Under the pieces are notes generated by a model. That model did not search any database. It had not been told where the DNA came from and saw nothing but the letters and a program-made list of their open reading frames with translations. DNA of 64,000 bases, from positions 1 to 64,000 of the forward strand of contig QCKS01000005.1 of assembly GCA_003215175.1 (NCBI GenBank), in the 5' to 3' direction. Below are positions 1 through 29,983 of the stretch, piece after piece (the stretch's first letter is position 1; the number at the start of each line of letters is the position of its first letter). The position numbers and the translations under genes are program-made. Origin of the DNA: Acidimicrobiales bacterium AG-410-I20. Its GTDB lineage: Bacteria > Actinomycetota > Acidimicrobiia > Acidimicrobiales > MedAcidi-G1.

Positions 1-1274
1 GGATTTTAGAGGAAGAAGCTCGGGCTGATGCCGCTGCTGCGGATGCAGCAGTAATGGCAGGCGACGATCTTGGACCTTTTCATGGGGTTCCATTCACTAT
101 TAAGGAAAACATTGATACTGCAAATACGCCTACTACTCAAGGGCTACCGATTTTTGCCAATCGTATTTCTGCTGTTGACGCTCCAATCGTAGAGCGTATG
201 CGTCATGCTGGAGGGGTTGCTTTAGCGAGAACAAATCTTCCTGAGTTGGGGCTGCGGGTTAGCACTAATAATCCTTTACATGGCTTAACTCGTAATCCTT
301 GGCATCCAGATTTGACTGCGGGAGGTTCCAGTGGTGGTGAAGGGTCAGCGATTGGTTCTGGTATGTCTCCGTTTGGATTAGGAAATGACATTGGAGGATC
401 GGTAAGGAATCCGGCTTTTTGTTGTGGCATCGCTTCTTTGAAACCCACTCATGGGCGCATTCCTTGGTTTAGTTCCTTCGCTGAGGATCAAAATATTGGT
501 CTACCAGTTTGGATGATGTGCACTGACGGTCCAATGGCTCGTTCAGTTTCTGATCTTTGGACTGGGATGGCGGTGCTGAATGGTCGTGATGTACGCGATC
601 CGCGTTCAGTTACTGTTGCTTTAGAAGGTCCGGAAGTTCCAAAACGAGCTGCTGTTTTAAGAGAAGTTCCTGAAGTTGAGTGTGATCCATGGGTGCTTGA
701 TGGAATTAATAAAGCGGTTGAAGCTCTAGAAGCGGCCGGGTGGGAAGTTGTTGAGGCTGTTCCACCTGAAATAGAACAGACTGGAAAAGTTTGGGCTCAC
801 TTACTTTCAAGCGATTTAATCGGTGAAGTTCTTGAACAATCTTTAGAAATAGTGAAAATGTTTATGAGTGAAGGCCTGATAACAAGTTTGACGAATCTAA
901 CAAACCAGTATTCATCTGATGACATGTCCTCTACGGAAGTTCACACTGAGTTTGTTCGCTTGAGCCGTCTTTGGAGTCAATTTTTTGTTGACTATCCGGT
1001 ACTGATTATGCCGACTTGGACTGCTAAACCCTTTGCTCATGATGCTGATATAGATAACCCAGATACTGATTGGATGCGGGATTTGCTTGCGTGTATTTTG
1101 CCACCGAACATTTTAAATCTTCCTTCTGCTTCTGTGCCTGTGGGCGTGGCTGACGGGCTACCACAAAGTGTGCAATGTGTATCGGATAGATGGCGTGATG
1201 ATCTAGCGCTTAGTGCAGCAGAGGACATCGAAACCCAACTAGGAATTTTTACTCCTATCAACCCAGTTATCTAA
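1..1274 (+). CDS. Amidase signature family hydrolase, 5' end outside window
   Basis: The frame is open from base 3 to the TAA at 1272-1274, so the gene starts upstream of the window; the ATG at 54 is internal. The amidase-signature Ser-cisSer-Lys triad is visible: the Lys codon at 102-104 (in FTIKENID), a GGSSGGE stretch from 321, and the nucleophile Ser codon at 399-401 (in NDIGGSVR). Family members hydrolyse C-N amide bonds in the cytoplasm and substrate cannot be read from sequence; annotations range from aryl acylamidase to fatty acid amide hydrolase. It is not a convincing GatA, because no gatB or gatC lies next to it and the C-terminal half is diverged. Its end overlaps the end of the convergent helicase gene by 4 bases. 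Family assignment is firm, substrate unknown. Confidence 0.88.
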   Translation, partial: ILEEEARADAAAADAAVMAGDDLGPFHGVPFTIKENIDTANTPTTQGLPIFANRISAVDAPIVERMRHAGGVALARTNLPELGLRVSTNNPLHGLTRNPWHPDLTAGGSSGGEGSAIGSGMSPFGLGNDIGGSVRNPAFCCGIASLKPTHGRIPWFSSFAEDQNIGLPVWMMCTDGPMARSVSDLWTGMAVLNGRDVRDPRSVTVALEGPEVPKRAAVLREVPEVECDPWVLDGINKAVEALEAAGWEVVEAVPPEIEQTGKVWAHLLSSDLIGEVLEQSLEIVKMFMSEGLITSLTNLTNQYSSDDMSSTEVHTEFVRLSRLWSQFFVDYPVLIMPTWTAKPFAHDADIDNPDTDWMRDLLACILPPNILNLPSASVPVGVADGLPQSVQCVSDRWRDDLALSAAEDIETQLGIFTPINPVI

Positions 1275-3202
1275 TCAGAGAGGTCAACTGCCCCACAGCG
1301 TTTTAGAAAATCATAGGTCTCACTCATACCCACGTTATTTTCTTTGCTGTAATCGGGATAAATCGGCAACCAAATGACTAACCCATAACGAGCTCGGCTC
1401 AACAAAACTCGATATCTGTTCTTCGCTTCAGTCGAATCTTTATCTTTGGTCCATCTACTTCCGCGAAATTTCTGACTTTCCCATTTTTTGGCTTTGTCGA
1501 CATAAAGAAAGTCAGACCCCCAACAAAGACCTGCCCAATCTATTTCTAATCCTTGACATTTAAATTCCGAAGCCGCTACTTCAAGAGAGTATGAAGAGCG
1601 TAGATCAGCTTGAAGGTCAATAAACCATCTAGGCCAATTAATTCCACTTTGGAATTCATTACTCATCTCAATACCTAACGCTCTGAGTCTTCTTGCTTGT
1701 GCGCTGGCCAAAAGTCCTACCCGTCGATCAACTGAAGACCGATCACGTAAATAACTTCTCATCTCCTCAAGGTCTCTTGTAATCAAAATCGGATAATCCT
1801 GATTTTCAGATAGAGCAAGAGATGCACTAGACGCATCTCCGCTAAGAACTGCTTCAATCCAATTAGATAAAACCCGACCGCGCGGAGCTCTGACACCAAC
1901 TGACAAGTGCAGATTCGAACTCTCGATTGCTCTATCCCCTAACTCATTCTCAACATGAGGAGAAATATGCACTTTCCACTCTGGGAAAGAACGGAGGGCA
2001 TCCATCCATTCTGATATTCCAGCCTCTCCAGTGTTTATCTCCTGACCTTCACCCACCAAAGCCACCACGACACTCCAGTCATTTGCTCTGCTCATGATTT
2101 CAAATGTAAGTTCGGCTTCGCTTTTCTCGATCTTTTGTTTACGCCACATTTGTCTGGCATCCCAGGCGCGCTGTGCTTCATCAAAAACGATCACATTTTC
2201 TGGAGGTGGTGCACTTCTGAAGGCTTCAAATTTTATGAACCTATGCACCATCTGTACCATGATTTCCGATAGGCGCTTCGCTTCCTTCATCGTTATTTCG
2301 TCACGTTTTTTTATATCAAGCGCCAGAGCGTACTGAAGTACATCCACCAAAGGTCCGTTTCCACTTAGATAAGTGCCTATAGTTTCACTCTCACCAAACC
2401 CAGTCTCTAGATGAACAGTCGATAAACCAGCAAGGGTTTTCCCAGAACCAGGAACTCCAGTTACAAAGCAAGCAATTCGTTCAGACTGTATTTGAGCCTG
2501 CCTAATTAAATCGCGAATCTCATTTACAGTCTTTGTTAAATTGTCTGCATCAGCAAAACTGATCTCCCTAACTTCATGACCAGAATAAACATCAAGAGCA
2601 GCTTCTATAATTCCTGGAGTGGGCTTGTAGCCTGAGTTCTCCCAAAAATCAGCATTAATCAAGTTACGGTTTCTATATTTTGAATGGATAGAGGACAGTA
2701 AAGTTCCTAGAGTTTCCGGTGAAACTCGTTGCACAGCATCAGTTGAAGAGTCAACGAAAGTTTCTTTTGCTTCCGAAGCACAAAGAATGGGAACTACATC
2801 CAAACCTCTACTCTCTTCATGAAAATCTCTTAAATCTTTTACATAGTCTTCTACTTGAAGGCAATCCGCTCTCGAATAACTCTCAGAACCAATCTTCATT
2901 TCAACTACAAATATGACCCCATGTCCAAGAAGCACAACATCGGGCCGTTTCCCTCTTCTGGGTATTTCATACTCGAATAAAAGAGACCAATGATCAAAAG
3001 ACTTATCCTCCATACAGCATGTATTTAAGGCTTTACTAACTATGTCAACTGACCTCTGCCAGGCATGGGTTTGTTCTTGCGTTAAGTTATACCCTCGGAG
3101 AGCAGACTGTTGTGCGAGTTCCTCTAAAACTAGCCCTTCAACACCTTTTGTGTTTAGTAACTCATGAACTTTTAATCTTGCCCATGCTTGACCTCTCTTC
3201 AC
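1271..3202 (-). CDS. PD-(D/E)XK nuclease-like / DUF2075 helicase fusion protein
   Basis: A 643-residue protein with GTG start. Near the N-terminus an RPD...VEMK pattern (D88, E101, K103) matches the PD-(D/E)XK nuclease core. A P-loop follows (GVPGSGKT, Lys255), then a Walker B-like FDEAQ (D341, E342), and near the C-terminus an LLSRARYGLVIW stretch resembling a superfamily 1 motif VI. The P-loop half matches the DUF2075 (schlafen group 3-like) DNA/RNA helicase family. An AAAGGAG ribosome site overlaps the stop of the upstream methyltransferase, and the genes are 16 bases apart, so it may be co-transcribed with the kynurenine genes. Proteins of this architecture are often accessory and suspected in nucleic acid defence or repair, which is inference here. 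Domain calls are good; biological role is unknown. Confidence 0.75.
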   Translation of the reverse strand: MKRGQAWARLKVHELLNTKGVEGLVLEELAQQSALRGYNLTQEQTHAWQRSVDIVSKALNTCCMEDKSFDHWSLLFEYEIPRRGKRPDVVLLGHGVIFVVEMKIGSESYSRADCLQVEDYVKDLRDFHEESRGLDVVPILCASEAKETFVDSSTDAVQRVSPETLGTLLSSIHSKYRNRNLINADFWENSGYKPTPGIIEAALDVYSGHEVREISFADADNLTKTVNEIRDLIRQAQIQSERIACFVTGVPGSGKTLAGLSTVHLETGFGESETIGTYLSGNGPLVDVLQYALALDIKKRDEITMKEAKRLSEIMVQMVHRFIKFEAFRSAPPPENVIVFDEAQRAWDARQMWRKQKIEKSEAELTFEIMSRANDWSVVVALVGEGQEINTGEAGISEWMDALRSFPEWKVHISPHVENELGDRAIESSNLHLSVGVRAPRGRVLSNWIEAVLSGDASSASLALSENQDYPILITRDLEEMRSYLRDRSSVDRRVGLLASAQARRLRALGIEMSNEFQSGINWPRWFIDLQADLRSSYSLEVAASEFKCQGLEIDWAGLCWGSDFLYVDKAKKWESQKFRGSRWTKDKDSTEAKNRYRVLLSRARYGLVIWLPIYPDYSKENNVGMSETYDFLKRCGAVDLSD

Positions 3203-3218
3203 TGCTTAATCATCTCCT

Positions 3219-3848
3219 TTAAGGAATCCGCACTCCTCTAATTAATTTCACTGGAACTCCAGCAGTTGTGGTGAGTTGTCCGGTGGCATGCACTCCTCGA
3301 GCGGTTAATGCTTCCGCTATTTCATCTACATAAACGTTTGTTAATTCGTCTTCATGCCCGTGATGTGTCGCATGGAGGGGGTGATCAGGATGAGTGTAAT
3401 CCTCGTCTAGTAACACGATGCGTCCACCTGGAGCTAACACCCGCGCTAGTTCATCGAAAGCAGCTTCGAGATCCACCCAGTGATGAACTGCGTTCACTGT
3501 CCATGCTGCATCAATTGTTTTATCTTCTACGGGAAGGGTTTCGGCCACTCCATCTGCGACAACTATTTGATTACGTGCTTTTTGTCCTAATCGCCTTATG
3601 GAAAGAATTGTTCTCATAAATGATGATGGCTCTACTGCTATTACTTTTGCTCCTTGAAGTGCTGCGGCAACCGTGGCGGGGCCCATCCCTGCCCCAATGT
3701 CTAAAACTGTTTCTCCGGGTTTGATTTCCACTAATTGCAAAGTGGCACGGTTGATGTCTGATTGCCAGAATTTTCTTATCTTGGTTAGCCAATGAAACTT
3801 GGCTTTCAATTTCTTGTCATGTTCGTGGCGGTACTGGTCGTGACTCAT
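3219..3848 (-). CDS. Class I SAM-dependent methyltransferase
   Basis: A 209-residue protein with SAM motif I (LDIGAGMGPAT), an acidic residue after strand 2 (VIAVEPS) and a post-I motif (DAAWTVNAVHHW), typical of the methyltransferase 11/25 group. An ATGA overlap with the kynureninase stop (3845-3848) indicates translational coupling. A basic N-terminal segment precedes the Rossmann core. Its place behind kynureninase might suggest methylation of an anthranilate-type metabolite, but nothing in the sequence fixes the substrate. Family firm, role unknown. Confidence 0.8.
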   Translation of the reverse strand: MSHDQYRHEHDKKLKAKFHWLTKIRKFWQSDINRATLQLVEIKPGETVLDIGAGMGPATVAAALQGAKVIAVEPSSFMRTILSIRRLGQKARNQIVVADGVAETLPVEDKTIDAAWTVNAVHHWVDLEAAFDELARVLAPGGRIVLLDEDYTHPDHPLHATHHGHEDELTNVYVDEIAEALTARGVHATGQLTTTAGVPVKLIRGVRIP

Positions 3849-5146
3849 TCTGGCCTCAAGATTCTTTTCAGTATTTCAACGAAACGGAAGATGTCAGTAA
3901 AGGAGTTGTAAAGCGGGACCGGTGCTACTCGTATCACGTCGGGATAGCGCCAATCGCAGGAAACTCCTGACTCTTCTAGTTCATGGAAGACTTCTCGTCC
4001 GTCTTTCCCTTGAGCGGTTATCCGTAAGGAAAACTGGCATCCTCGTTCGGGTAGTGCTTTGGGGGTTATAACTTCTATTTCTTCTGAAAGATTTTCTGCT
4101 AAAAGAAAATCTAGATAGTTGATTTGTTTCTCACTTTTTTCTCGTAATGGGAGTATGCCGCCTGCGAGATCAAAAATATTTAGCGATGCTCGTATTGGAA
4201 CCATGGAAAGTATGGATGAGTTAGAAAGTTGCCATGCATCCACTGTTGGAATCGGGTCAAACACGGTTTCCATCTCAAATCTGGTTTCTGCGTTGGTTCC
4301 CCACCATCCTTCGAAACGATTTATATCTGGTCTATTGAGGTGCCTTTCATGTACGAAGCATCCAGCGATTGCTCCTGGTCCAGAGTTCATGTATTTGTAG
4401 TTACACCAAACTGCAAAATCTGCCGACCATTCGTGAAGATTTAAAGGAATGTTTCCTATTGCATGTGCAAGATCAAGCCCGACAATTGCCCCGGCTTGAT
4501 GCCCTAGTTCAACGATGTCAGACATTGGGAAAACCTGCCCGGTGTAGTACTGAATTCCGGGAAGCAGAATGAGAGCCAGTTCTTCTTTATGTTTTTCTAT
4601 TTGTTCAGCGATGTCTTCCGCTCGAATGAGTTCTTCACCGGGACGAGGTTCTACTGTGATGAGTGCTTCTGCTGGAGAGAGTCCATGGTGACGTATTTGT
4701 GATTCAACAGCGAAGTGGTCTGTGGGGAACGCGTGACCTTCAATGAGTATTTTATATTTTTGTTTATTTGGACGATAAAAGCTGACCATCATCAAGTGAA
4801 GATTGACGGTGAGTCCATTCATCACTACTACTTCTTCCGGTTTCGCTCCAACTAGTGAAGCCATTTGCTCATTCATGATTTCGTGGTAAGTCGACCAAGG
4901 ATGGTCTGGTTGATGATCTGTTTCAGCGTGTCCTCGAACGCCAAGCCTCCCCCACTTATTTATTTCTGCGTTCATGTAATCGCGAGCGGCCAAGGGAAGA
5001 AGCCCGAGAGAATTACCGACCAAATATATCTCTTCGTCACCGTTGGGAGTAACGGTCATTTCAAATTCGTTTCGAAGGAAAGCTAAAGGGTCGTCTTGAT
5101 CCAGTTGTTGAGCGCCCTCAACGGAGTTGTCAAAGTTTTTATTCAT
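3845..5146 (-). CDS. kynU: Kynureninase
   Basis: Kynureninase (EC 3.7.1.3) is a PLP enzyme that cleaves kynurenine to anthranilate plus alanine, or 3-hydroxykynurenine to 3-hydroxyanthranilate. The signature CNYKYMNSGPG carries the PLP-binding Lys251; upstream, DLAHAIGN supplies the cofactor-binding Asp/His region. The length (433 residues) is normal. A TTG at 5155 is also in frame, but the ATG at 5146 is preferred because it lies just after the stop of the dioxygenase gene (5159) and gives a usual N-terminus. It follows 3-hydroxyanthranilate dioxygenase by 12 bases, which fits the 3-hydroxykynurenine branch of tryptophan breakdown. No tryptophan dioxygenase, formamidase or kynurenine monooxygenase is in the window. 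Confidence 0.93.
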   Translation of the reverse strand: MNKNFDNSVEGAQQLDQDDPLAFLRNEFEMTVTPNGDEEIYLVGNSLGLLPLAARDYMNAEINKWGRLGVRGHAETDHQPDHPWSTYHEIMNEQMASLVGAKPEEVVVMNGLTVNLHLMMVSFYRPNKQKYKILIEGHAFPTDHFAVESQIRHHGLSPAEALITVEPRPGEELIRAEDIAEQIEKHKEELALILLPGIQYYTGQVFPMSDIVELGHQAGAIVGLDLAHAIGNIPLNLHEWSADFAVWCNYKYMNSGPGAIAGCFVHERHLNRPDINRFEGWWGTNAETRFEMETVFDPIPTVDAWQLSNSSILSMVPIRASLNIFDLAGGILPLREKSEKQINYLDFLLAENLSEEIEVITPKALPERGCQFSLRITAQGKDGREVFHELEESGVSCDWRYPDVIRVAPVPLYNSFTDIFRFVEILKRILRPE

Positions 5147-25967: not shown

Positions 25968-26459
25968 CTAACTAAATATAGGGCTATCAAAATCATCAGA
26001 CCCGCTAATTGAGTCATCATCTTTTTTACGACGTTTTTGTGATTGCGGTTTATACCTAGATTTTTCTCTCCGACTCTTTGGATTTCTTATATAAAGAGAA
26101 AGAAGCAGTAGAGACACGAATATGAAGGCAACAATTATGCTGACCAACCCTGCACGCCAACAATCACCTTCTCCGGTGTCCCCTTCACCGCCACCCCCTC
26201 GGCGTTCTCTCAAATCAGCAAGCCTGTAATCGGCTTCTTCCTGCGTTATCTCCCCATCAACAAGGGATTTTTGGACGGCATCAACTTTCTCATCGTAATC
26301 CAAACATTCCGGATCTAATTTTTGAAGGAACCCTTTTTCCTCTATGTTCCCAATATCCCACCAGACACCAATCCCGCCGCCTATTAAACCAGCGCCGAGA
26401 AGTATAAATAACATGACTTTAACTGCACGCGGAGTCTTAGAAACCGAAACTATTTTCAT
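25968..26459 (-). CDS. Small two-span membrane protein of unknown function
   Basis: A 163-residue protein I do not recognise. A first membrane segment lies at about residues 15-33 (VMLFILLGAGLIGGGIGVW) and a second at about 105-125. Between them is a charged loop containing EITQEEADYRLADLRE, then a Gly-rich patch and two cysteines. The tail is very basic (RRKKD region) and ends in a Ser/Asp-rich segment. An SHOCT-like helical motif in the loop is possible. It diverges from the large repeat protein across 194 bases and may share its regulation. Confidence 0.6.
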   Translation of the reverse strand: MKIVSVSKTPRAVKVMLFILLGAGLIGGGIGVWWDIGNIEEKGFLQKLDPECLDYDEKVDAVQKSLVDGEITQEEADYRLADLRERRGGGGEGDTGEGDCWRAGLVSIIVAFIFVSLLLLSLYIRNPKSRREKSRYKPQSQKRRKKDDDSISGSDDFDSPIFS

Positions 26460-26653: not shown

Positions 26654-29600
26654 ATGCAGGAAAAAATTGTAGCTTTTTTTAAAAACACATTTGAGAGACG
26701 TGATGCCCGAATCATTGCCGTGATTATCATCCTTGCGCTTATTGCCGGCATCGTTGTCGCTACTACTAGAGGCGGAAGTTCTGACGAAGCAAATTTTGAT
26801 GGTTTATCGCCCGTATCAGATTACGTGTTCCAGCCAAATAACGCTTTGGGCCCTGATCCTTTCGGCCCTTCTTTTGCCAACTACACACTTGAGGTACCGA
26901 CTGAAGACCTTTCTAGTGGAACAGTTAGTTCTGATACTTCAGGCCTATACGGAGGAACTGGGGAAAATTCTTGTGATGTAGAGGCAATGATTGAGTTCCT
27001 GATGAACAATCCTGATCGCGCTGCGGCTTGGGCCGGGGTGCAAGGTATTGCTGTTGATGAAATTCCTGACTATTTGCGATCATTAACCGCTGTTGTTCTT
27101 CTTGAAAACACTCTGGTCATTAATCATGGTTATTCAGAAGGAGAAGCTGTACCTTTTCTTGCTGTTCTTGAAGCAGGTACCGCTGTACTTGTAGATGACG
27201 ATGGTATTCCTCGGGTGCGTTGCGCTTGTGGTAACCCTCTTACCCCTCCAGAAGAACCTCCTCCTACTGAAGAAACGACAACTACTGAACCGGAAATTAC
27301 GACTGAAGAAGTGGATTGTCCAATATTTGACGGTGAGCCACCTTATGGATTTACGTTAGAAACAGATGGCACTTCATATGGATATTGGTCGCTACATACT
27401 CCTAGCGGAATATTTGTATGGGACCAAACGTTGCCGGGTTGGCATCCGGTACCGGATGACGGAACCGTTTATGCAACAGAATCTGATATCCCTGGATACG
27501 ACGAGGAGTGCTGGCCTTGTCCACCATCAACTCCTGGAGGCCGTAGCACTCCTTCTTATGAAACAGATGATGATGGAGGTTACAAATCAAGCTCAGATGT
27601 GCTTGAAGAAGAAGGTAAGGAACGAACTGAAAAATACGTTGTCATTAAAGCCGTTAAAAGTTCTTCAGGAACTACTACTACCAAGGATTCAGGTGCAGAC
27701 GACGACCCAGAAGTTTATGAGCCGAGTTTTGATACTGAAGAAATAGATCCGGAAACAACAGAAGAGTTTGAGCCGGAATATGACGATGAATCTACTTTTG
27801 ATGGCTGCTTGCCACCATGTATAGATTGGCGATTTGGCGTCGCCTCTATGACTACTCGTGACTACCACTGGATTTGGCCAGGACAATCTTTTGAGTACAC
27901 CTATCCTGCGGAAGACTCTCCAGATCACTGGAGTTGGGAACACGGAGTTGGTTGGGTTAATCCCCTATATGTTCCTGACACTGTGATCACTGACTTCCGT
28001 GACCTGCCCGGGTGGTTTGAAGAATGTAATGATTGTCCGCCATGGGGGTGGGTAGAAACTGATGATGGTGTTTGGCGTTGGATAGACCCCAGTGGTGAAT
28101 TTTTCACTTTTGATGCTGACGAGGACGGCTGGGTTCATACCGGTAATACCGATTGGGGTGATTTCTCTGACCCCTACCAACAGACAACAGAAATTGACTC
28201 TTCAGACGCTGATTGGCTGGGGATAATTGGTGATTACACAGCTTTACCTGGTTTCGACGAGGAATGCTTTGATTGCCCTGAATGGTGGGGCTGGAAAGCT
28301 GGCGTTAATTTAAATGGTAATCCCGCTTACATTTGGGTAGCTCCCGATGGCAGTAATTGGTATTGGGGTGATGCTGGATGGGAAGAAGGACCATCTATTG
28401 AGCCAATCTCTAATACCTCAAATAGCCCATCAACACTTTTTGTAGGTGCTACTTCAGAAAGCGATGGACCAACTTATACCGACCATAGAGAACTTCCGGG
28501 TTGGATTGAAGACTGTTTTGAGTGCCCACCTTGGGGATGGTCTGATGTTCATGACCTTTCTTGGATTGGACCTGATGGGAAACAGTGGTTTACAAGTATG
28601 AGTGGTGTATGGGTAACTACTGATCCTGCAGACGGAGAAATAAGCAGCTACAAAGATCTTCCTGGCTACATCGAAGAATGTAACGAATGTCCGCCTTGGG
28701 GTTGGATTGAGATGGAAGACGGCTCCTGGGTCTGGGACGGTGGCCTTGAGGTAGTCTGGACCTTCGAATTCTCTTCGGGAATTTGGCAGTGGATCTCAGA
28801 AGAAGGCTCGTATCCGCATAGCGACTACAAGGATTTGCCTAATTTCGATCCCGATTGTCATGAATGTCCCGAATGGGGTTGGGCGCCAGAAGGAGATATC
28901 TGGTACTGGGTTGATCCAAATGGGGTGACTTGGATTCCAAATGAATTTGGTGACTGGGATCCTGAAGAAGGCGCTTACTCTGAGTATTCTCTAAATACTG
29001 TCTTTAGCCCAGATCGCTTACCCGGCTGGTATGAGGATTGTCATGATTGTGGTGGATTTGGCTGGAATGATGACGATGGTGACGGAATTTGGGTCTGGGT
29101 GGATCCAACTGGGGTCACTTGGACTCAATATGCCGATGGACTCTGGTATCCAGATAATGGAGGAGAGCCGGTCATCACTCACACTCGTCTTCCTGGTTGG
29201 GACGACAACTGTGATGAAGGTCCTCCTTGGGCTTTTGAAACCAGAACAACGTTAACGCCACCAACTACAACAACAACGACAACAACGACAACAACGACAA
29301 CAACGACAACACAGCCCGGAGATACTCCGGATGCGCCAACGCTAGTTTCTTTAACTTTGTTTCATCAAGTGATTGGAATTGATTGGAGAGAACCTACTTA
29401 CGAAGGTTCATCTCCAATCACTGACTTTGTGGTTCAATCAAGAGCTGGCAGTGCTGGAACATGGGAAACGGTGAATGAAGGTGTTTCTACAACGACCGTT
29501 GCTTCAGCTTGGGTTATTCCAAATGGTACGGAATATTTCTTCCGTGTTGCTGCCGTAAATAGTGCAGGAACAGGCCCATGGTCAAACGAATTATCTGGTG

Positions 29601-29983
29601 TTCCATATAATTTAGACCCTGAGCCTGCCGATGCAAATGGGAATCAAGGAACTCGTTACCTTTACTGGTACAAACCTGCTGGAGTTACTACTCCAGGCAA
29701 CACTATCTATCAGCTTGGGGTGTTAGTAAATGATTCTGGAAATATTGAGGTAACAAATAAGAGTGTTTCAACGGATGGGTCTGGCACCTTCAGTGAATCT
29801 TTAATGGTCAATAAGGATTCTTATGCATCTGGGACACTTTTCAATTGCACGGATTCCTATGATTTCTATGTGCGAATATATGCTCCTAACTTTTTCGGAA
29901 GTCCAGGATTTGTTACTGATTGGGTGACTCATCCAGTTGAATGGCAAAACTATACATATAGCGGCACGAACGACTGTCAATAA
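26654..29983 (+). CDS. Large membrane-anchored protein of Trp/Cys-rich repeats with FN3 domain
   Basis: A 1109-residue acidic protein that I do not recognise as a whole. An N-terminal membrane segment (about residues 19-38) acts as signal anchor, leaving the rest outside. From about residue 222 to 860 are eight or nine modules, most ending in DLPGW-x-E-x-C-x-x-C-PPWGW; the cysteine pairs start at 286, 385, 458, 538, 621, 676, 735 and 796, with a last single Cys at 853. Each module carries W-x-W-dP-G-x-x-W patterns suggesting short beta sheets. A poly-Thr linker (about 870-886) leads to a fibronectin type III domain (about 893-983) and a further beta-rich C-terminal domain. Likely a cell-surface adhesin or structural protein; this is inference. 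Confidence 0.85.
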   Translation: MQEKIVAFFKNTFERRDARIIAVIIILALIAGIVVATTRGGSSDEANFDGLSPVSDYVFQPNNALGPDPFGPSFANYTLEVPTEDLSSGTVSSDTSGLYGGTGENSCDVEAMIEFLMNNPDRAAAWAGVQGIAVDEIPDYLRSLTAVVLLENTLVINHGYSEGEAVPFLAVLEAGTAVLVDDDGIPRVRCACGNPLTPPEEPPPTEETTTTEPEITTEEVDCPIFDGEPPYGFTLETDGTSYGYWSLHTPSGIFVWDQTLPGWHPVPDDGTVYATESDIPGYDEECWPCPPSTPGGRSTPSYETDDDGGYKSSSDVLEEEGKERTEKYVVIKAVKSSSGTTTTKDSGADDDPEVYEPSFDTEEIDPETTEEFEPEYDDESTFDGCLPPCIDWRFGVASMTTRDYHWIWPGQSFEYTYPAEDSPDHWSWEHGVGWVNPLYVPDTVITDFRDLPGWFEECNDCPPWGWVETDDGVWRWIDPSGEFFTFDADEDGWVHTGNTDWGDFSDPYQQTTEIDSSDADWLGIIGDYTALPGFDEECFDCPEWWGWKAGVNLNGNPAYIWVAPDGSNWYWGDAGWEEGPSIEPISNTSNSPSTLFVGATSESDGPTYTDHRELPGWIEDCFECPPWGWSDVHDLSWIGPDGKQWFTSMSGVWVTTDPADGEISSYKDLPGYIEECNECPPWGWIEMEDGSWVWDGGLEVVWTFEFSSGIWQWISEEGSYPHSDYKDLPNFDPDCHECPEWGWAPEGDIWYWVDPNGVTWIPNEFGDWDPEEGAYSEYSLNTVFSPDRLPGWYEDCHDCGGFGWNDDDGDGIWVWVDPTGVTWTQYADGLWYPDNGGEPVITHTRLPGWDDNCDEGPPWAFETRTTLTPPTTTTTTTTTTTTTTTTQPGDTPDAPTLVSLTLFHQVIGIDWREPTYEGSSPITDFVVQSRAGSAGTWETVNEGVSTTTVASAWVIPNGTEYFFRVAAVNSAGTGPWSNELSGVPYNLDPEPADANGNQGTRYLYWYKPAGVTTPGNTIYQLGVLVNDSGNIEVTNKSVSTDGSGTFSESLMVNKDSYASGTLFNCTDSYDFYVRIYAPNFFGSPGFVTDWVTHPVEWQNYTYSGTNDCQ
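29270..29305 (+). repeat. Four 9-base tandem repeats coding poly-Thr
   Basis: The unit ACAACAACG is repeated four times in a row inside a longer ACA/ACG run coding the Thr linker of the surface protein. The 9-base period keeps frame, so slippage could alter linker length without breaking the protein. Confidence 0.85.

Follow-up and report, generated by a model that had tools for sequence, protein, structure and literature searches.

A membrane-anchored protein of a marine Acidimicrobiales bacterium with a tandem array of Trp-rich modules, each predicted to be closed by a disulfide

The window analysed here is the whole 64,000-nucleotide stretch at positions 1 to 64,000 of contig QCKS01000005.1, from the marine Acidimicrobiales bacterium AG-410-I20. 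An open reading frame of 1109 amino acids was confirmed on its forward strand at 26654–29983, where all parts of the protein described below also lie; the frame has orthologues in relatives and is under purifying selection. A hydrophobic run following basic residues, read directly, gives a single transmembrane signal anchor (residues ~18–40, 26705–26773) with the N-terminus probably inside, and the sequence beyond it reads as extracytoplasmic. There follow a DUF6777 domain (residues 90–207, 26921–27274; Pfam PF20568, E = 1.5e-44, 152 bits against a curated cut-off of 27, spanning profile positions 2–120 of 163), eight Trp modules and one Thr/Glu-rich pseudo-module, a poly-Thr linker (29255–29311, read directly, with a DNA repeat at 29262–29311), a fibronectin type III (FN3) domain (residues 907–981, 29372–29596; Pfam PF00041, E = 3.4e-9, 37.2 bits against a curated cut-off of 25) and a C-terminal tail domain (29609–29980) that contains the cysteine pair 1065/1108. 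The tail domain returned no match in family searches and resembles the tail in G006 (locus L006). A preliminary description of this gene had proposed a surface protein with an N-terminal anchor, a Thr linker and an FN3 domain; these three elements hold, but the N-terminal DUF6777 domain had been overlooked. The product is predicted to be exported and membrane-anchored, and we infer that it is exposed at the surface. Because the Thr linker and FN3 domain sit C-terminally and the topology appears to be N-in, the FN3 domain probably forms the distal tip.

Within the genus the gene has a stable neighbourhood, with a hydrolase and a permease upstream and an acyl-CoA dehydrogenase and an alkyl sulfatase downstream, and the module genes of families f27 and f35 sit in unrelated neighbourhoods. 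A functional operon was considered and rejected: most of the neighbours are metabolic genes whose conservation does not extend beyond the genus, and they offer no functional hint; no conserved signalling gene was found near the window gene. A divergently transcribed gene at 25968–26459 on the reverse strand encodes a 163-residue membrane protein with no family match, which evolves fast (36–44% identity in relatives) and was not detected beside the module gene in G002 or G004.

Downstream of DUF6777, cysteines occur at residues 222, 286/289, 385/389, 458/461, 538/541, 621/624, 676/679, 735/738, 796/799 and 853, and then at 1065 and 1108. The pairs and the single Cys 853 agree with the preliminary description, as do the DLPGW and PPWGW frames around them, but its reading of modules that end in a CxxC-type pair does not survive the addition of the lone Cys 222. 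Taken in order, the 18 array cysteines form nine brackets (222–286, 289–385, 389–458 and so on to 799–853), each running from the second cysteine of one joint to the first cysteine of the next, and eight of the nine are Trp modules. The CxxC is then the joint between adjacent modules (seven of eight joints here; 385/389 is CxxxC), and the lone cysteines 222 and 853 are explained, because bracket pairing leaves one at each end of the array; Cys 853 simply closes the last module. When the same residues were shuffled 100,000 times, no shuffle gave long and short cysteine gaps that alternate throughout. The alternation recurs in relatives, except in incomplete sequences and at the ends of the f7 proteins, which are more ragged. 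Joints in relatives are CxC, CxxC or CxxxC and reach 12 residues in G279 (range 2–12), with brackets of about 46–103 residues. Since joint length differs among relatives, a fixed CxxC motif is not the conserved feature, and the CxxC as a structural, pinning unit is rejected on cysteine parity together with the variable joints. As a definition of a disulfide-bracketed module we propose an even cysteine count, a flanking pair belonging to each module and free joint length, and the array shows all three. From this register we infer a disulfide between the first and last cysteine of each module.

The first bracket, C222–C286 (27317–27511), is a divergent Trp module of PPYGF type, recognised by cysteine order and a weak profile match (E = 5.8e-4). 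The second, C289–C385 (27518–27808), is placed by cysteine parity; it is acidic and Thr-rich and carries a conserved element, SYxxDDxGxYxSSxxVL...RTxxYVVI, also present in f27 and f35 proteins. The earlier count of eight or nine modules therefore holds as eight Trp modules, this segment being a pseudo-module and not a Trp module. C389–C458 (27818–28027), assigned from cysteine order, is degenerate. Cysteine order and the module profile agree for C461–C538 (28034–28267), C541–C621 (28274–28516), C624–C676 (28523–28681), C679–C735 (28688–28858), C738–C796 (28865–29041) and C799–C853 (29048–29212), and AlphaFold2 predicts four strands in each of the last two. The final module also contains an EF-hand-like loop, DDDGDGIWVWVD, a candidate Ca2+ site that has a DVNxDGIEEW counterpart in f27, in the last modules of L076–L080 and L083.

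Enzymes that could introduce the putative disulfides were sought with VKOR (own genome and seven others), Thioredoxin_4 (own genome) and DSBA searches. The own genome, which is 83% complete, gave no VKOR, Thioredoxin_4 or exported DsbA-type enzyme, and the single DSBA-family protein it encodes has no signal peptide and looks cytoplasmic. These results weigh against the bracket disulfides proposed here.

The module consensus is CPxWGWxxxxDGxWxWxxPDGxxWxxxxxGxW...DLPGWxEDC. The modules of f7 are mostly shorter and miss the first WGW strand, so the core common to these and the other modules is the shorter form W-x-D-x-x-G-x-x-W-x-(W/Y)...W...LPG(W/Y)...C. Trp makes up 8.1% of the array and Asp plus Glu 21%, which bears out the dominance of Trp and acidic residues noted previously. 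The impression that no known domain family fits was also right: the window modules had no match in Pfam, NCBIfam or PHROGs, 22 diverse modules gave only isolated, sub-threshold stray matches in the same libraries, and a profile of these 22 found nothing among PDB sequences at E = 10. Structure prediction of two adjacent modules (8–9, from an 18-row alignment) gave four strands per module, with a mean pLDDT of 71, strand regions at about 72–87 and a pTM of 0.49, a result of moderate confidence from a shallow alignment. A reading in which no folded unit lies between the cysteines is thus not supported. A Foldseek search with the module model returned no relative at E ≤ 0.001 in the PDB or BFVD, the best PDB row having E = 0.6 and a probability below 0.1. 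The module itself appears to be undescribed in the libraries searched, and the anchored, repetitive surface protein is of a known general kind.

How old is the array? Modules within the protein share a mean identity of 30% (maximum 53%), each has a one-to-one counterpart in the sister species G004 that is 81–96% identical, and Tandem Repeats Finder detected no module-length DNA repeat, its sole reports being the Thr linker and a pair of runs of 19–27 bp. On these grounds the array is old, and the recent expansion suggested in the preliminary description is not supported. Module number does differ among related genomes, from 4 to 8: there are eight in G000, G004 and L032, five in G002, 4–7 in f27 and f35, and about 7–8 in f7. 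Purifying selection on the modules is strong: dN/dS is 0.07–0.09 in most of them (0.08–0.09 against G004), with 0.23 against G004 in the degenerate C389–C458 module, and it is 0.03–0.04 in DUF6777 (0.03 against G004), the most conserved part of the protein. All 18 array cysteines and 51 of 51 Trp residues are retained in G004; the corresponding counts for L032 are 18 of 18 and 44 of 46. Divergence is uneven along the chain, with identity to L032 at 88–89% over residues 661–840 and 34% over residues 481–600, and dS to G004 at 0.28–0.44 over residues 361–660 against 0.93–2.09 in five upstream genes. Mid-array exchange between lineages is the simplest account of this mosaic. The contigs of G001, G003, G004, L032 and G006 break inside the module gene, as either population variation or difficulties in assembly could cause. 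That the modules came from a phage, plasmid or virus was considered and rejected, as tblastn of the modules against phage and plasmid records and searches of the whole protein and DUF6777 against viral contigs gave no match.

A module profile of the type found in the own genus matched 13 of the 397 genomes sampled from the order, in the own genus, in f27 (genus g32), in f35 (genus g81) and weakly in f7 and f21; some of the f27/g32 genomes carry two different module proteins. Other genera of the own family gave no module match, and evenly drawn samples of the class and phylum yielded no further match outside the order. Clear matches are limited to DUF6777 proteins of four Acidimicrobiales families, and wherever a module protein of f1, f27, f35 or f7 is sufficiently complete, it carries DUF6777; the sequence from G267 ends before the DUF6777 position. 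Locus L031 belongs to the published marine metagenome-assembled genome MedAcidi-G2B, of the same genus as the window organism; this genus is reported from the vicinity of the deep chlorophyll maximum but not from depths greater than 150 m (PMC10205998). The contig L032 (PAEG01000018.1, apparently contig 31 of G351) is binned in f27, and its genes are 75–93% identical and syntenic to those of the window's genus; it is probably mis-binned.

The Trp module is missing from the majority of DUF6777 genes sampled in the order, and no mention of DUF6777 was found in the literature searched. In f17 (L106–L110) the domain precedes other long arrays, rich in Cys and built of a different module type. By eye, their segments have an SH3-like look; Pfam finds nothing except DUF6777 in L106 and L107. 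The L107 gene at 314–4645 has DUF6777 partly duplicated in tandem, with two Pfam stretches and a near-identical segment repeated. In L105 (3189–6728, reverse strand) and L112 (630–2891, forward strand), a Ser/Thr kinase domain and a membrane-spanning stretch precede DUF6777, which is the C-terminal and apparently extracytoplasmic domain there; this is a lead for a sensor role.

Taken together, these results point to a single-pass, membrane-anchored exported protein in which DUF6777 would lie just outside the membrane, followed by a string of small, Trp-rich antiparallel-β beads, a Thr spacer and the FN3 tip. Each bead would be closed by a disulfide from its first to its last cysteine, and the beads would form a stiff, acidic stalk or a multivalent binding array within and past the cell wall. 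In the evolution of the array, whole beads would be swapped, added and lost, with strict preservation of the Cys/Trp frame. We give this reading, an anchored stalk or multivalent array of disulfide-closed Trp beads, an even chance of being correct. It rests on the cysteine parity here and the long/short alternation in relatives, the four-stranded unit predicted with moderate confidence for each module, the low dN/dS of most modules with retention of Cys and Trp, and the variable bead number, mid-array replacement, membrane anchor and FN3 domain. The role would be that of a stalk or of Trp-mediated binding, probably to a glycan or polymer. A more specific version, which we advance tentatively and consider a good deal less probable, is that the disulfide-bracketed Trp β-module, with DUF6777 as its constant fusion partner and with whole beads exchanged between lineages, is a fast-evolving recognition surface in streamlined marine Acidimicrobiales; its targets may be phage, grazers or polysaccharides, for example.

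The kinase fusions raise the question of whether DUF6777 is the working part. It could sense or bind a ligand while the Trp beads serve as a wall-spanning, wall-binding arm that reports the state of the envelope, with the fused Ser/Thr kinase of some relatives taking the signal. The strong constraint on DUF6777 and its presence in all sufficiently complete module proteins of the four families fit such an arrangement, but in the window protein a kinase is missing and the cytoplasmic tail is short, and no signalling gene is conserved nearby. The AlphaFold2 model of DUF6777, built from four near-identical rows, has a pLDDT of 46, too poor for fold comparison, and we think a sensor arm rather unlikely. 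The beads might instead be a passive spacer that merely holds the FN3 tip off the cell, with bead number setting the distance as in Periscope Proteins. Tandem beads between anchor and tip, varying from 4 to 8, would suit a spacer, but they average only 30% identity, whereas in Periscope Proteins the repeats are highly identical to one another (PMC8201768). Complete Trp retention against G004 also suggests more than spacing, though these residues could be core residues, and we judge the spacer unlikely.

Kinship with known repeats and a function for the CxxC pairs themselves carry still less weight. The beads could be diverged Trp/Gly hairpin repeats of the choline-binding or CROP cell-wall-binding type that bind a wall polymer. 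The highest-ranking Foldseek rows, none of them significant, include structures of LytB, LytC and CROP, and one stray NCBIfam match is to a PspC-related choline-binding family (E = 0.2). The GW....DGxWxW..P.G..W periodicity of the beads presumably resembles that of these hairpin repeats, which we take as a lead only. Against this stand the absence of a Pfam or NCBIfam family match for the 22 diverse modules, the empty profile search of PDB sequences and the insignificant best PDB Foldseek row, and such a descent seems doubtful to us. It is very improbable that the CxxC pairs are redox-active, metal-binding or locally disulfide-bonded motifs: the spacing prevails in this protein, but the joints of relatives range from CxC to 12 residues, and the lone cysteines sit exactly at the array ends, C222 and C853, as bracket pairing predicts.

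The Cys-bracketed bead matters because it defines a small domain family that the public libraries searched do not contain; its boundaries are clear, its covalent architecture can be tested and its distribution is limited. DUF6777, so far without an assigned function, gains a recurrent context in the lineages read, where arrays of small Cys-bracketed modules often come after it, or a kinase before it. Should bead exchange follow the pressure exerted by phages or grazers, the array would give abundant, uncultured ocean bacteria a means of varying their surface.

Among known systems, choline-binding and CROP repeats presumably share with the beads a tandem arrangement of short, Trp- and Gly-rich β hairpins. 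Unlike them, the beads have bracketing cysteines, and no sequence or fold match rises above noise. In f21, DUF4190 membrane proteins (L085, L086 and L088) begin with a Trp hairpin, GEWxxDxxGQWTWxxxDGSxWRQ, that the module profile matches weakly (E = 3.6e-5 to 7.7e-4); it differs from the beads in being a single copy with no Cys bracket, ahead of transmembrane segments in a different protein, and is possibly an intracellular cousin of the module or a convergence. Periscope Proteins are also anchored surface proteins with tandem folded modules in variable number (between species in the present case). By the criterion of repeat similarity (PMC8201768), the window protein is not one of them, as its modules are diverse and show no recent DNA-level repeats; nor was a ligand-binding tip identified. 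With fibrillar adhesins, which require at least one adhesive domain (PMC8286594), it has in common a long single chain, tandem domains and an anchor, but this anchor is an N-terminal transmembrane segment and not a sortase or wall anchor. A Pfam scan of the window protein found no known adhesive domain, as that definition demands; a new adhesive domain is possible. Finally, the DUF6777 proteins of Actinobacteria sampled in the order mostly lack Trp beads, which occur in four families only, and some are kinases, but the window protein has in common with them a full-strength DUF6777 domain behind one transmembrane stretch.
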